64,000 bases of DNA from Lichenicola cladoniae (GTDB lineage Bacteria; Pseudomonadota; Alphaproteobacteria; Acetobacterales; Acetobacteraceae): the NCBI RefSeq assembly GCF_013201075.1, contig NZ_CP053708.1, positions 4,531,501-4,595,500 of the forward strand. Direction: 5' to 3'. Position numbers and translations under genes: made by a program. Each line of letters opens with the position of its first letter. The stretch's first letter is position 1. Of the stretch, positions 27,781 through 33,158 are shown in pieces. The notes under the pieces are model-generated. The model worked only from the letters and a program-made list of their open reading frames with translations. It was not told the origin of the DNA and searched no databases.

Positions 27781-28815
27781 ATGAAGGTCGATGCGCGGCA
27801 GGCCGGGCGGCTGCTGAGTGCGCCCGGAGCTTTGCGCGCCATCCTGCTGCATGGCGAGGATACTGGCCTGATCCGCGAGCGCGCCGCCGATGCGGTGCGC
27901 GCGGCGGCGGGTACGCTCGATGATCCGTTCCGTGTCGCCACCCTCTCCCGCGATGCGCACGAACGCCTGGAGGAGGAGGTTACCGCGCTCTCCCTGACCG
28001 GCGGCCGGCGCGTGGTGTGGGTTCGCGATGCCACCGACGCGCTGGTGGCGCCGCTGAAGCGCGCCCTCGGAAAGCCGGGCGATACCCTGGTGGTGCTGGA
28101 GGGACCGGGCCTGGTCTCGCGTTCCAAGCTGCGCGCGCAGGTCGAGGCGATGCCGGACGGCGCGTCGATCGCCTGCTACCCGGAAGAGGGGCGGGCGCTG
28201 GAGGCGCAGGTGTCGCAGATGCTGGGCGCGAACAAGGTGCGGATCGACCCGGACGCGCTGGTCTGGCTGTGCTCCCGGCTCGGTGCCGACCGTGCGGCGA
28301 CGCGGGGCGAGGTGGAAAAGCTGGTGCTGTATGCAGGCGGCGCCGGGGATGGCGAGGGAAGCATCACGCTGGAGGATGCGATGGCCTGCACCGGCGATGC
28401 CGCCGGCGCCTCGCTGGACGATGCCGCATTCGCCGCGACCGCCGGCGACCGGGCCGGCGCCGACCTCGCGATCGAGCGCACGTTGGCCGAGGGGTCGAGC
28501 CCGATCGCGGTGGCGCGTGCGCTGTCGGGCCATCTGCACCGGTTGCGGCTCGCGCGGCTGGTCATGGAAGAAAGCGGCCAGGGCGCGCAGGACGCGATGC
28601 GGGCCTTGCGTCCGCCCGTGTTCTTCAAGCGGACGCAGGCCTTCGCGCAGGCGCTGTCGCTATGGAGTGCCGCCGGCCTGCTGCGGGCAGCCGAGCAGAC
28701 CCAGGCGCTCGAACTTGCCTGCAAACAGACCGGATCGCCCGACCTGGTGCTGTGCAAGCGGCACCTGGCAGTGATCGTAGGCCAGGCGCAGGCGAGCCGA
28801 GGCGTCCGGCATTGA
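27781..28815 (+). CDS. holA: DNA polymerase III delta subunit
   Basis: HolA is the clamp-loader delta subunit that opens the beta sliding clamp (344 residues, normal length). Recognised segments are an AAA+-like N-terminal domain (AILLHGEDTGLIRERAADAVRA), LLDE-type strand substituted by GDTLVVLEGPG, a middle domain with ALVWLCSRLGADRAATRGEVEKLVLYAG, and a C-terminal collar with FFKRTQAFAQALSLWSAAGL. It lies 21 bases past lptE. Position after leuS-lptE supports the call. Confidence 0.93.
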   Translation: MKVDARQAGRLLSAPGALRAILLHGEDTGLIRERAADAVRAAAGTLDDPFRVATLSRDAHERLEEEVTALSLTGGRRVVWVRDATDALVAPLKRALGKPGDTLVVLEGPGLVSRSKLRAQVEAMPDGASIACYPEEGRALEAQVSQMLGANKVRIDPDALVWLCSRLGADRAATRGEVEKLVLYAGGAGDGEGSITLEDAMACTGDAAGASLDDAAFAATAGDRAGADLAIERTLAEGSSPIAVARALSGHLHRLRLARLVMEESGQGAQDAMRALRPPVFFKRTQAFAQALSLWSAAGLLRAAEQTQALELACKQTGSPDLVLCKRHLAVIVGQAQASRGVRH

Positions 28816-28864
28816 CGGAGCATGTTGCCCGGAGCTCGGGCGTCGGCCTATAAGCGGCCTGGTT

Positions 28865-29173
28865 GTCCGCGTAGCTCAGCCGGATAGAGCACAGGATTCC
28901 TTGTCACCAACTGGGCGTCACGATGGGAAACCGCGTGATGGATCCGCTCAAAGTCGGGGAAAGCTGAGGCGCTCTATGCGCCGTGCCAATCCCGAGCCAA
29001 GCCCATCCGAAAGGATGGGAAGGTGTAGAGACTGGACGGGCGGCACCTAAGGGTTCCGGCCTAGGGTGAAGGGACAGTCCAGACCACGAACGCCACCCCA
29101 ACGGGTGGCGGCGGCGAAAGTCGAAGTGGGATGAATCCTGGGGCCGTGGGTTCGAATCCCGCCGCGGACACCA
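28865..29173 (+). tRNA. tRNA-Arg(CCU) gene interrupted by a group I intron
   Basis: Two exons, 28865-28901 and 29134-29173, join into a 77-base tRNA with an encoded CCA. The acceptor stem GTCCGCG pairs with CGCGGAC, the D stem GCTC with GAGC, and the anticodon stem CAGGA with TCCTG around loop TTCCTAA, giving anticodon CCT. The T stem GTGGG pairs with CCCGC around TTCGAAT. The discriminator is A and CCA follows (29171-29173). The insertion lies just after the last anticodon base. Interruption of tRNA-Arg(CCU) by a self-splicing intron is known from Agrobacterium and relatives. The gene begins 49 bases after holA. Confidence 0.93.
28902..29133 (+). ncRNA. Group I self-splicing intron in tRNA-Arg(CCU)
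   Basis: This 232-base intron lacks any endonuclease frame. The 5' exon ends in U and the intron ends in G (29133), as group I splicing needs. A candidate internal guide GGGAA (28925-28929) pairs with exon bases UUCCU (28897-28901), including the splice-site U-G wobble. Core matches to the Azoarcus-type intron include GAGCCAAGC (28994-29002), AAGGTGTAGAGACTGGACGG (29020-29039) and GGTGAAGGGACAGTCCAG. P7 can form from GACTG (29030-29034) and CAGTC (29075-29079). Supporting hairpins are CCCATCC-GAAA-GGATGGG (29002-29019) and an 8-base-pair stem at 29091-29110. Subgroup IC3 is likely (inference). Confidence 0.92.
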
Positions 29174-29213
29174 ATTTTCCCGATGACGACTAGCGCTTGC
29201 CGGGATCGAAAGC

Positions 29214-29249
29214 CCGGCGCCGACCGGAACAGGAAGGGCGCCGGTTTAT
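29214..29249. terminator. Probable intrinsic terminator between tRNA-Arg and TonB receptor
   Basis: CCGGCGCC (29214-29221) pairs with GGCGCCGG (29237-29244) over a 15-base loop, followed on the plus strand by TTTAT. It would end the rightward tRNA transcript. The leftward receptor gene stops at 29255, so the hairpin could serve it as well. Confidence 0.5.
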
Positions 29250-29254
29250 CTTGC

Positions 29255-32224
29255 TCAGAACTTGCCGGTGACACCGAAGCGGAACGCGCGGCCGAGGATA
29301 CCGGCGGTGGCCCAGGCCGGGTTGTACTGGTAGCCGCCATATGTGCCGGTATCGAGCGGCGGCCCCTTGTCGAAGACGTTGTAGATGTTGGTGTAGAGGT
29401 TGAGCCTGTTGGTCAGCGCATAGTTGATGGTCAGGTCGACGTCCACGAAGCTGGCGACGCCACAGCGCAGCGGATCGCCCGAAAAACCCTGCTGTGCCAT
29501 GCTGCAATCATTCAGCGTGCCGCCTCCAGTAACGTCTTCGGCGGTGAGCTTGTAGCCGCTGGTGTAGTTCATCGTCGCAGTCACCGCGAGGCGCTTGTAG
29601 GTGAAGGTATTGGCCCAGTTGGCGCGCCAGCGCGGCGTGCCGGAAGCTGAGCTGATGTTGGCTGGTCCGAGCGAGCCGGCATAGGACTGAAGGCCGGTGC
29701 CCGGGTATGTGATGGTATAGCCGAGGATGTAGGTCGCCTGGCCTGTGCTGGTCCATTTGATGTCCTGCAACGGGCGCGGCAGCGGGATGCGGGCCCCGAG
29801 CGCCAGGTCGATCCCGGACGTCACCAGTTTGGCGGCATTGATGTAGCCGAGATTGACGATCCCGGGACGCAGGATGGTGGCTTCCGGATGATCCGGATCG
29901 GCAACGTCGGGCGTCACGCTGATGCCGGAGGGGTATTCCTTGTTGGTGAAGTAGTTCGCCACCGGTCCGCTATAATCGGCCGTCGTGATGAAGTTGATCT
30001 TCTTGATATGGTAATAGTCCGCGGTCACGTTCAGCCAGGGCAGCGGGGTCAGCACGGTGCCGCCGGTGAAGCTGGTCGATTTTTCCGGTTTCAGCGCGGG
30101 ATTGCCGACGCTGTTCAGCCCGAGGTTATAGGTTGACGCATAGGTATCCGGCCCGGTGCCGGAGCTGTTCTGGTGCTGAGCCAGGAAAGCGGCATCGGTC
30201 GGTGTGTAGCTGATGTAACCGACTCCCGGCACCGCGTTGGTTTCCGGGAAGCTCGGTACCCGGAAACCCTTGGAGAAGGTGCCGCGGAACATGACCTTGT
30301 CGATCGGCCTCAGGATCACGCCGATCTTGGGCGCGAAATTGCTGAACCCTTCCGAATAGTTGTCGTAGCGGCCGGAGACGTTCACGTTGATCTGCTTGAT
30401 GAACGGGATGTCGGCCTCGAAATAGCCCGATCCCACCCGGCGGCTGCCGACGGCGCCGAAGCTCCTGAGCTGCGACAGATACTGCGCATTCGGGTTGGAC
30501 GGATCGTCCGGATTGGGGGTCGGGTCGTTGACCGATTCGTAACGTGCGTTGCCGCCAATACCCAAAGTCACCATGCCACCGGGCAGGCTGAACAATCCTT
30601 TCGAGAGCGTGACGTCGAGCGAATATTCCTGGCTGCTGTCGTTCTGCACCGATTTCGGCGCGATCGCATTGCGGACCGCGGCGCTGTTCTTCGACGGATC
30701 GACGAAATTATAGCTGCCTGTATTCACCGCGTTCAGGATGCCGGCGAAGGTCGGCACCCCGGTGACGGTCCGCTGCAGCGTATCGACCATGCCGACAAAG
30801 GACGCGTTGTACATCCAGTCGCCGCCCCAGCCCGAGTCGATCGACCCGTTGAGGCCGGTGGAGCCGCGATAGGTCTGGTTGAGGACCAGGTTCGTCGTAT
30901 TGAGATCGGCGAACCGGTAGTAGATCTGCGCCGGCAGGCCTTGCGCCGCGAACGGATTGTTCGGATTGAGCGTGCCGTTGGCAAGGTTTACGGGCAGCAC
31001 GATGTCTGTCAGGTCCGCATCGCCGGACGCGCTCTTCTGGCGGATCGAGCTCGGTCCCGAGACCGATCCGGTTGTAAAGACCTGGTTCTGGGCATAGCTG
31101 AACATCGCATAGGCCTGCGCCCGGTCGCTCAAATTCGCAGTACCACGCAAGTTAACGCTGATTCGCCGGTCGCTTGGGAACAGCAGCCGATAGTCGCCGA
31201 CCGTGTTCTGTTCGCAGACCGTGCCTTGTGCGACCACGTGTGTCGCGAGACCATTGCATCCGAGCGTCGGGCTGATCGGCTGCAGCAGGCCGGTGCTTCC
31301 ATCGGCGTTGACCGGCCGCACCTGGGCGACGCGCGTCGAGCCGATGCCTGAAATAGTGCCGTCGTTCTGGATGCCGTTCTCGTTGCCGTTCGACCCGGAC
31401 AGGCCGCGTAGGTCTCCGGTATCGTAGGGATAGCCACGGTCGCGGTTATAGATGATGTCGTCGTTCTGGTACTCGCCGTTCAGATAGACGTTGTAGCCAT
31501 CGCGATTGAGGTCGCCGACGCCGTAGGTCGCATACAGTCGCTGATGGCCGCCGTCGGCGCGCTGGCTGAGGCCGCCTTCCGCGCCGCCCTCGAATCCCTC
31601 GATCTGCTTGCGGGTGATGATGTTGACCACGCCGGCCACCGCGTCGGCGCCGTAGGTCGCGGATGCGCTATCCTGCTGCACGTCGATGGTCTGCACGATC
31701 GATTGCGGGATCGTATTGAGATCGACGAAGTTGCGCTGGCCGTCATCCGCCAGCGGGTAATAGGCGGCGCGCTGGCCGTCGATCAGCACCAGAGTCGAGT
31801 CGACCGTCAGGCCACGCAACGAGGCGCCGCTCGCGCCGATGGCGAAGGCACCGTTGCCGGAAAATGCGGCCGGCAGGCTGCCGCCGTTATTGGACGAGAC
31901 CTGCGAGAGCGCGGCAGCGACCGTGGTGATGCCGCGGACCTGCATGTCCTTGGCGGTCAGATGCGTGACGGGCGAAGCGCCCGACAAGTTCGGGTTGCGC
32001 AGGATGGAGCCGGTGACGGTGACAGTCTCGGCGGCGTCCTTGGTCGGTGCCGCGTCCTGTTTCAGCGCGGACGTAGCCGATGTCGTGCCGGCCGTGGTGC
32101 TGTCGATCGCCTGCTTGCCGGGGACAACAGGGGCCTGGGCGAGCGCCGGCGTGGCGATGCCAAGCGCAATGCACCCGGCGGTGGACAGCAGGAGAAGGTT
32201 TCGAAAGCCAACGAAAGCACTCAT
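29255..32224 (-). CDS. TonB-dependent outer membrane receptor
   Basis: This 989-residue outer-membrane receptor should import a substrate with TonB/ExbBD energy. The signal peptide ends ATPALA before residue 31. The plug domain covers about 65-200 (ETVTVTGSILRNPNL, LIDGQRAAYY, DSASATYGADAVAGVVNIIT). The barrel runs to the C-terminal phenylalanine (RFGVTGKF), which is the outer-membrane assembly signal. ATG 32224 is chosen because the signal peptide begins there; the longer frame to 32347 has no export features. The sequence resembles the large receptors of sphingomonads and acetic acid bacteria rather than classical siderophore receptors. No transporter partner is adjacent, so the substrate is open. 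Confidence 0.92.
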   Translation of the reverse strand: MSAFVGFRNLLLLSTAGCIALGIATPALAQAPVVPGKQAIDSTTAGTTSATSALKQDAAPTKDAAETVTVTGSILRNPNLSGASPVTHLTAKDMQVRGITTVAAALSQVSSNNGGSLPAAFSGNGAFAIGASGASLRGLTVDSTLVLIDGQRAAYYPLADDGQRNFVDLNTIPQSIVQTIDVQQDSASATYGADAVAGVVNIITRKQIEGFEGGAEGGLSQRADGGHQRLYATYGVGDLNRDGYNVYLNGEYQNDDIIYNRDRGYPYDTGDLRGLSGSNGNENGIQNDGTISGIGSTRVAQVRPVNADGSTGLLQPISPTLGCNGLATHVVAQGTVCEQNTVGDYRLLFPSDRRISVNLRGTANLSDRAQAYAMFSYAQNQVFTTGSVSGPSSIRQKSASGDADLTDIVLPVNLANGTLNPNNPFAAQGLPAQIYYRFADLNTTNLVLNQTYRGSTGLNGSIDSGWGGDWMYNASFVGMVDTLQRTVTGVPTFAGILNAVNTGSYNFVDPSKNSAAVRNAIAPKSVQNDSSQEYSLDVTLSKGLFSLPGGMVTLGIGGNARYESVNDPTPNPDDPSNPNAQYLSQLRSFGAVGSRRVGSGYFEADIPFIKQINVNVSGRYDNYSEGFSNFAPKIGVILRPIDKVMFRGTFSKGFRVPSFPETNAVPGVGYISYTPTDAAFLAQHQNSSGTGPDTYASTYNLGLNSVGNPALKPEKSTSFTGGTVLTPLPWLNVTADYYHIKKINFITTADYSGPVANYFTNKEYPSGISVTPDVADPDHPEATILRPGIVNLGYINAAKLVTSGIDLALGARIPLPRPLQDIKWTSTGQATYILGYTITYPGTGLQSYAGSLGPANISSASGTPRWRANWANTFTYKRLAVTATMNYTSGYKLTAEDVTGGGTLNDCSMAQQGFSGDPLRCGVASFVDVDLTINYALTNRLNLYTNIYNVFDKGPPLDTGTYGGYQYNPAWATAGILGRAFRFGVTGKF

Positions 32225-33158
32225 AGGCCTTGGGTCTCCGGTCTCTCGGGGGCATGCGCCGCAGGACACCGCGTTACGCAGAGCAACATTTGGTTGCAGA
32301 CCGATCAAAATCGTTCCAGCACCGATCCGCAATGCGCAACCTGCCATTCATAGCCCATGGCAATACGGTAGTTGTTTTTGTGCAACAGTGCCATGCGTTG
32401 GTTGCGCGACAAGCAGGGTGACGGCTGAGCCGCTGTCTCTGCCGCAACCGCTTCTTCGCCTTTACTTGAGGCTAAATACCGAAGGGAGCGGCCGTCGGTG
32501 CGACCGCAACCACCGGTGTGCCGTCATGCATGACGCCCCGACCCCGCCACCATCGCGAAAGCAATTGCTGCGATGGCTGATAGCTCAAGAGAGGAAGCAG
32601 CGCGCGCCTGGTGCGTCGCGCTCCCGGCTGGTACGCGTGCCGTTGGCTCCAGGACTACCAGGAACCGAATATATGTTGTCGAGCAGGCCATCGTGGCTTT
32701 GTGCTCGCGCTTGCATATCGAAAAGCCCTTTTGACGGCGCGGCCACAACCTTGAATGATGCTGACCTTCAATCGACGTGCTCGATAAGTCCCCGAGCACC
32801 TTAACCCCGCGCGAACCACCAGCTGGCAGCATGCAAAGGTCTCTGCTTTCCGAACTTTGTTACGGGCGGTCAGAGAACTAATGCCAGGTCGGACCATCCA
32901 ATCCATCAGCCGGGTAGCCATCGACCGGTTGAGGCCCCCACTCGCGCACCCTGTGCCTGAAGTTGCTGACACTCGTGCTCATGGTGCCCTGCTCAGACAG
33001 AAGCGACGAACGCTGGCGTGGTGCCACCGGCTCGGCTCCTGATGCCATCCCGCCGGACGCCTTTCGGCGCAGTCCCGCAACTCACGACTTGGGTCCGATG
33101 AACTTAGCCGTCCGACCGGACTTGGAAGGGTCGTAGTTCCGTTCCAGAGGATCAGCTG
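32225..33158. other. Gene-poor region upstream of TonB receptor and SDR
   Basis: These 934 bases hold no gene I can support. Short open frames exist on both strands (for example minus 32655-32972), but none has a recognisable motif or ribosome site, and codon use is unlike the neighbours. The region must include the receptor promoter at its left end and the SDR promoter at its right end. It could contain decayed coding sequence. Confidence 0.45.
32356..32395. promoter_or_regulatory. Nested inverted repeat upstream of the TonB receptor
   Basis: CATGGCA (32356-32362) is mirrored by TGCCATG (32389-32395), and inside it GTTG (32371-32374) by CAAC (32383-32386) around a T-rich centre. It lies about 130 bases upstream of the receptor start, a suitable place for an operator, but no known regulator site is recognised. 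It may also be chance. Confidence 0.3.

Follow-up and report, generated by a model that had tools for sequence, protein, structure and literature searches.

A single tRNA-Arg(CCU) gene was found in the genome of Lichenicola cladoniae. It is interrupted between bases 36 and 37 by a group I intron that has no reading frame, and we are highly confident that this intron splices itself out through its guide GGG and its P7 helix and is inherited together with the gene. The window analysed here is a stretch of 64,000 nucleotides (NCBI RefSeq assembly GCF_013201075.1, contig NZ_CP053708.1, positions 4,531,501 to 4,595,500 of the forward strand), and all coordinates refer to it. The directly observed evidence consists of the sequence, the insertion site, the covariation of the fold, a search of the genome in which no other CCU gene was found, and the agreement of the intron with the neighbouring HolA.

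The split tRNA-Arg(CCU) gene

When positions 28865-28901 and 29134-29173 of the forward strand were joined, plain ARAGORN read a complete 77-nt tRNA-Arg(cct), so the full cloverleaf with anticodon CCU proposed in an earlier note on this DNA was right to the base. The last bases of the 5' exon are the anticodon CCU, and the CCA end is encoded in the 3' exon. The insertion point lies between bases 36 and 37, with anticodon base 36 directly 5' of it. The insert (28902-29133, forward strand, 232 nt) is preceded by U and ends in G. No promoter or terminator was found in a scan of 28600-29350.

For the unspliced window plain ARAGORN reported no tRNA, and its intron mode labelled the gene tRNA-His(AUG). 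An automatic annotation could thus overlook the gene or give it the wrong name. The same label was given to L125, the sole congener scanned, and most other intron genes of the Acetobacteraceae were read in intron mode as tRNA-Arg(cct). That the gene yields a tRNA-His(AUG) by splicing three bases off is hardly credible. Intron mode gave this reading for the window and for L124, L125 and L122, and a GAT is present that could act as its guide, but the joined exons are Arg(cct) in plain ARAGORN and the genome already has a tRNA-His(GUG). Moreover, every row with a His reading also allowed Arg(CCU), and many Arg rows had no His reading; the His identity was rejected on these grounds. The gene is thus taken as tRNA-Arg(CCU). 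Its omission by plain ARAGORN resembles an effect described in the accessible part of PMC8450103, where bacterial tRNA genes for fMet and Ile2 escape tRNAscan-SE because of group I introns.

The genome assembly comprises 6.06 Mb in 8 contigs (100% complete, 4.62% contamination). Among 45 tRNA matches, 44 were above the cut-off, and when all 44 were read no second tRNA-Arg(CCU) was found. The pattern for an intron-free tRNA-Arg(CCU), with one mismatch allowed, also had no match in this genome (G000). Another gene of this kind, together with an unspliced RNA, had been named in the earlier note as grounds against the intron; no such gene appeared in either search. tRNA-Ile(GAU) and tRNA-Ala(UGC) were not among the tRNAs found. 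Genes for these two are commonly part of rRNA operons, so both may be absent from the assembly, and the tRNA list may have a few gaps.

A cmscan search of 28700-29300 (601 bases) gave a match to the Rfam group I model RF00028 at 28889-29090 (model positions 1-253, 34.5 bits, E 4.1e-07). The score is below the curated cut-off of 50 bits, which is a curation threshold and no biological feature, and the Rfam search of the window at the gathering threshold had no match. When the whole genome was searched with RF00028, nothing but this locus (E 9.8e-07) matched at E up to 1. Some match at E up to 1 was also seen in 8 of 14 control genomes, two of them above the cut-off, so this limit alone is unspecific. 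Six of 17 related loci matched at E up to 0.01 (L246, L202, L187, L197, L255 and L254), only L246 exceeded the cut-off, and the four congeners of the window had no match at that limit. The generic model is therefore weak for this intron lineage, and our case is built on covariation within the lineage itself. A match to HOTTIP_1 in the search of 28700-29300 (E 0.7) and two matches to microRNA families in L154, all under their cut-offs, were dismissed as chance.

The identification of the 232-base insert as a group I intron in tRNA-Arg(CCU), as first proposed from the letters alone, therefore agrees with the RF00028 match, the covariation and the joined exons; the covariance search that the earlier note had suggested was significant, though below the curated cut-off. 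Its statement that an endonuclease is absent also held. None fits, the longest stop-free stretch being 75 codons in 232 nt, and an encoded homing endonuclease, the mark of self-mobile group I introns, is missing. The insert is a small, well-preserved, protein-free RNA within the gene for the tRNA-Arg reading AGG, and very probably excises itself. In this genome, the sole tRNA-Arg(CCU) gene that was found is overlooked or misnamed when one relies on the Rfam cut-off and on ARAGORN.

Fold, covariation and proposed splicing

Helices were drawn by hand on the window, following the arrangement known from small group I introns of tRNA genes, and their pairs were counted in the 27 rows of a plain sequence alignment, namely the window and 26 of the 45 real loci, picked to thin near-copies. 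Two-sided changes were present in 44 of the 88 drawn pairs, compared to 23.1 +/- 2.2 after shuffling, and none of 500 shuffles equalled the observed number. These 88 pairs comprised 21 in tRNA stems (9 with two-sided changes) and 67 in P1 and the intron (35 with two-sided changes). As drawn, 94.5% of cells paired, compared to 32.6-41.7% when the 3' partners were slid by 1-3 columns. The best covariation was found in P2, P6a and P9.1. No variation occurred in the 27 rows at P1, P4, P6 and four of the five P7 pairs, so the test is silent on them.

The internal guide GGG (28913-28915) forms P1 with the CCU at 28899-28901, with a U-G pair at the splice site; guide and U-G were invariant in 27/27 rows. 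The terminal G was read in the window and was imposed by the extraction in relatives. A guide for the 5' exon had been claimed earlier and is now located. GGGAA at 28925-28929, which looks complementary to UUCCU, was rejected as the guide, being part of the P2/L2 hairpin. This hairpin (28917-28939; P2 28917-28922/28934-28939, inner pairs 28925-28926/28931-28932, GAAA loop 28927-28930) had two-sided changes in 5 of 8 pairs. P3 was drawn between 28944-28949 and 29038-29043. The constant P4 (28954-28959/28990-28995) surrounds P5 (28963-28964/28985-28986) and P5a (28968-28972/28978-28982), in which 77.2% of cells pair. P6 (28997-28998/29022-29023) carries P6a (29002-29008/29013-29019), where all seven pairs showed two-sided changes. 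In the P8 hairpin (29044-29068) the outer pairs covary and the inner pairs form in 71.8% of cells; the drawn inner parts of P8 and P5a match the window more closely than its relatives. P9 (29084-29087/29126-29129) encloses P9.1 (29092-29098/29103-29109), with two-sided changes in 7/7 pairs, and a hairpin capped by GAAA (29112-29115/29120-29123). All these elements are on the forward strand. Folded to minimum energy, the gene as a whole was more stable than shuffles (z -4.27); the resulting structure mixed exon and intron pairs and contained neither P7 nor P3. Such folds cannot represent the pseudoknot.

P7, the expected guanosine-binding helix, was located as GACTG at 29030-29034 with CAGTC at 29075-29079, as the earlier note had it. 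Its last pair, which follows GACU, was compared in 111 distinct cores including that of the window and was G-C in 76 and A-U in 33, with U-A in one (L009) and an unpaired G/A in one (L150) that may be a faulty parse. The exchange was also found within tRNA-Arg(CCU) introns (L141, L143 and L255), and this pair is the only one of P7 with covariation support. The compensatory change suggested earlier from a remembered A-U in Azoarcus is therefore seen among natural relatives. A conserved core of P3 to P8 with P7 is present, as indicated by the RF00028 match, the counted pairs and the P7 exchange.

Group I splicing proceeds by two transesterifications, the first started by an external guanosine and the second helped by P10, according to the accessible text of PMC3984707. 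The corresponding parts are present in the window, and we propose these two steps for it. In the transcript the exons would fold as tRNA arms and the intron as a P1-P9 core. The guide GGG would pair with the anticodon CCU, the U-G pair marking the 5' splice site, and a free guanosine held in P7 would attack this site. The freed exon would then attack after the terminal G and close the anticodon loop. A possible P10 strand (A, C, U at 28910-28912, forward strand) faces the 3' exon bases 29134-29136. In the window and the four congeners ACU has one mismatch against the exon AAU (middle C-A), and most aligned relatives have AUU before the guide, which could pair with AAU (middle U-A). The gene is presumably transcribed, and a tRNA for AGG would be supplied by self-splicing.

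The P10 mismatch could also be read as a sign of a degenerate intron, in which case the gene would give no tRNA and AGG would be read by tRNA-Arg(UCU) via wobble. A tRNA-Arg(UCU) is present in the genome, and AGG is rare, accounting for 4 of 152 arginine codons in three genes of the window. We consider this very unlikely, because none of the drawn helices is broken in the window, the splice-site bases are constant in 27/27 rows and the intron is kept in all five genomes of the genus. Judged by its sequence, the intron looks functional and is ordinary for its family.

Distribution, gene neighbourhood and inheritance

A degenerate pattern run over GTDB genome contigs gave 47 loci, of which 45 were tRNA-Arg(CCU) introns and two (L022 and L034) were discarded as chance matches without tRNA exons around them. 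The window itself misses this pattern because its spacer is longer. Most loci belonged to the Acetobacteraceae and the rest to the Rhizobiales, the Rhodobacterales and one Rhodospirillaceae MAG. L026 and L035 were cut at the locus end and omitted from extraction. In all 43 fully read rows the terminal intron G was followed by the join of CCT to AATC, a form required by the extraction. Insertion at 36/37 of tRNA-Arg(CCU), the mark of the alphaproteobacterial intron lineage, was found in the window as well. Outside the genus, identity to the window intron ranged from 68 to 87%, and the most similar intron was L016 from Primorskyibacter (Rhodobacterales, 87%).

A core model of 139 positions, R1, also matches introns in other tRNAs, and its figures are therefore no count of Arg(CCU) introns. 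It matched in 185 of 397 Acetobacteraceae genomes (56 of 102 genera), in 5/5 genomes of the window's genus, and in 48 of 385 and 36 of 359 genomes drawn from the class and the phylum, both draws including kin. The strict Arg(CCU) intron pattern, which misses variants, was found in 77 of the 397 Acetobacteraceae genomes, and the intron-free tRNA-Arg(CCU) pattern with one mismatch in 205. The latter is an upper figure, since it includes intron genes with an exon-like intron start (L158, L159) and another anticodon (L169). Three genomes (G022, G271 and G275) were on both lists, and their intron-free matches extend into the intron itself; no intron-free copy was seen in any of the 77 genomes with the strict pattern. 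The intron is common in the Acetobacteraceae. An unusually long tRNA-Arg(CCU) intron of 314 nt (L148) was seen near a leuS match in an Acetobacteraceae genome of 2.0 Mb (G066).

The tRNA gene begins 49 nt after an ORF (27781-28815, forward strand) which we take from its translation to be holA (DNA polymerase III delta), with presumed leuS and lptE upstream, and which served as a synteny marker. On the other side, a TonB-dependent-receptor-like ORF of 1030 aa (29255-32347, reverse strand, named from its translation) is convergent with the tRNA gene. Of 45 named intron loci, 29 have holA next to the intron gene, as do 4/4 congeners, so that all five genomes of the genus share this place. It was not adjacent in the other 16 of the 45, some of which, for example L035, end at that point; in the Acetobacter loci L013 and L033 it is elsewhere, and it was beside the intron gene in none of eight loci from other families.

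Distances between introns agreed closely with those between HolA proteins (Mantel r 0.93, equalled in 0 of 2000 permutations) in 41 of 64 loci, all beside holA, which had a long HolA match and from which identical genes had been removed. This agreement and the shared place behind holA support vertical inheritance, and the earlier suggestion of a vertical or old intron is borne out within the Acetobacteraceae. At the least, intron and gene would have passed down together within the clade in which they stay behind holA. A recent horizontal arrival in the lineage, for example from the Rhodobacterales, is improbable against this concordance. It would suit L016 as the closest intron outside the genus, and few deep forks of the intron tree were resolved. 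However, the tree joined the window with its four congeners (97/98 support) and placed the Rhodobacterales and Rhizobiales rows together in a group of their own, apart from the window's genus (82/87).

Two further observations could favour such an arrival. Firstly, the holA locus was recovered in 29 of 30 chosen genomes (G311, which R1 matched, and 29 that it did not), and no plain tRNA was found within about 1.5 kb of these 29 loci. The one hit of intron mode there, in L207, was a tRNA-Gly interrupted by 430 bases; it was taken for chance. Secondly, the acceptor stem differed. GTCCGCG was present in 34 of 35 Acetobacteraceae intron genes (L001 has GTCTGCG), and GTCTCCG in 27 intron-free genes among the 30 matches listed (L157-L186), which cover a few genera only; none of these 27 tRNA-Arg(CCU) genes had holA beside it. 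Vertical inheritance within the clade remains the preferred reading, and the differences in place and acceptor stem between intron-bearing and intron-free genes hint that the whole tRNA-Arg(CCU) gene may have been displaced or relocated, rather than the intron gained or lost in place.

Sister introns and comparison with known systems

The R1 loci were scanned for sites with an anticodon stem, a U before and a G at the end of the intron, and a matching guide. As the guide was demanded by the scan, the sister sites show consistency and no independent proof of retargeting. Fourteen of 107 loci, namely 13 intron loci and the intron-free L157, were left without assignment. Sister introns were found in tRNA-Leu(UAA) with guide GAG, in tRNA-Thr(GGU) of other Acetobacteraceae with guide GCC (L187, G024:C23; L198, G112:C23; L205, G021:C92), in Lys(CUU) with guide GGA (L145, L150, L153), in Lys(UUU) with guide GAG (L146), in Arg(UCU) with guide GGA (L246), and before the anticodon of a CAU tRNA with guide GGU (L244, L254). 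L197 appeared by eye to be an Arg(UCU) gene split at another place, with guide GAG. The three Thr(GGU) introns formed a single clade (97/93).

A tree of the cores, with a subset of the tRNA-Arg(CCU) rows and without L130, L188, L240, L243, L253 and L197 (no core), clustered by tRNA site, requiring 9 changes for 7 sites (minimum 6, shuffled mean 29.8). The labels of L134, L142, L195, L197 and L201 were set by eye. Few deep forks were resolved. In a joint reading which we put forward tentatively, one proteobacterial family of tiny protein-free introns may have moved among at least six tRNA sites (Arg CCU, Leu UAA, Thr GGU, Lys CUU, Lys UUU and Arg UCU) by rewriting its three-base guide in a manner like reverse splicing, and may then have been inherited vertically, the intron-bearing gene of the Acetobacteraceae perhaps having displaced the intron-free one whole.

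The wider interest lies in these sister introns of the Leu(UAA), Thr(GGU), Lys and Arg(UCU) tRNA genes. Having guides for different anticodon loops, they make spread by reverse splicing testable on related pairs, and the introns add a natural collection of small tRNA ribozymes with strong covariation. The window intron by itself leaves the general picture unchanged: bacterial introns of its kind have long been known, it adds one more to them, and it is ordinary for the Acetobacteraceae. A literature search, with most subscription journals outside its reach, found no paper on it. The accessible text of PMC13153191 concerns an rRNA intron, and solved structures of the Azoarcus intron are mentioned in that of PMC3984707.

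The closest known systems are compared as follows. Reinhold-Hurek and Shub reportedly described in 1992 a group I intron in the tRNA-Arg(CCU) of Agrobacterium tumefaciens, which, compared by description only, is like that of the window in its tRNA, its small size and its lack of a reading frame. Rhizobiaceae introns among our loci (L028, L038 and L045) have the identical 36/37 site and the same core, but belong to another order and are 77-81% identical to the window's. The tRNA-Leu(UAA) introns of bacteria and plastids, which R1 also finds in the Acetobacteraceae and the class, differ in their site between bases 34 and 35 and in their guide GAG. The window intron has GAAA loops in L2 and the P9 region and may belong to subgroup IC3, the subgroup of the Azoarcus intron. 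The helix layout and the two GAAA loops of the Azoarcus intron agree with the window's, whereas the tRNA is another, the natural guide is GUG instead of GGG, no P9.1 hairpin is known and the last P7 pair is A-U instead of G-C. For the tRNA-Ile(CAU) intron of Azoarcus sp. BH72, the accessible part of PMC6274277 gives a 3-nt guide, a required G-U pair at the splice site and the natural triplet CAU, and the window intron is alike in its three-base guide and its splice-site U-G.
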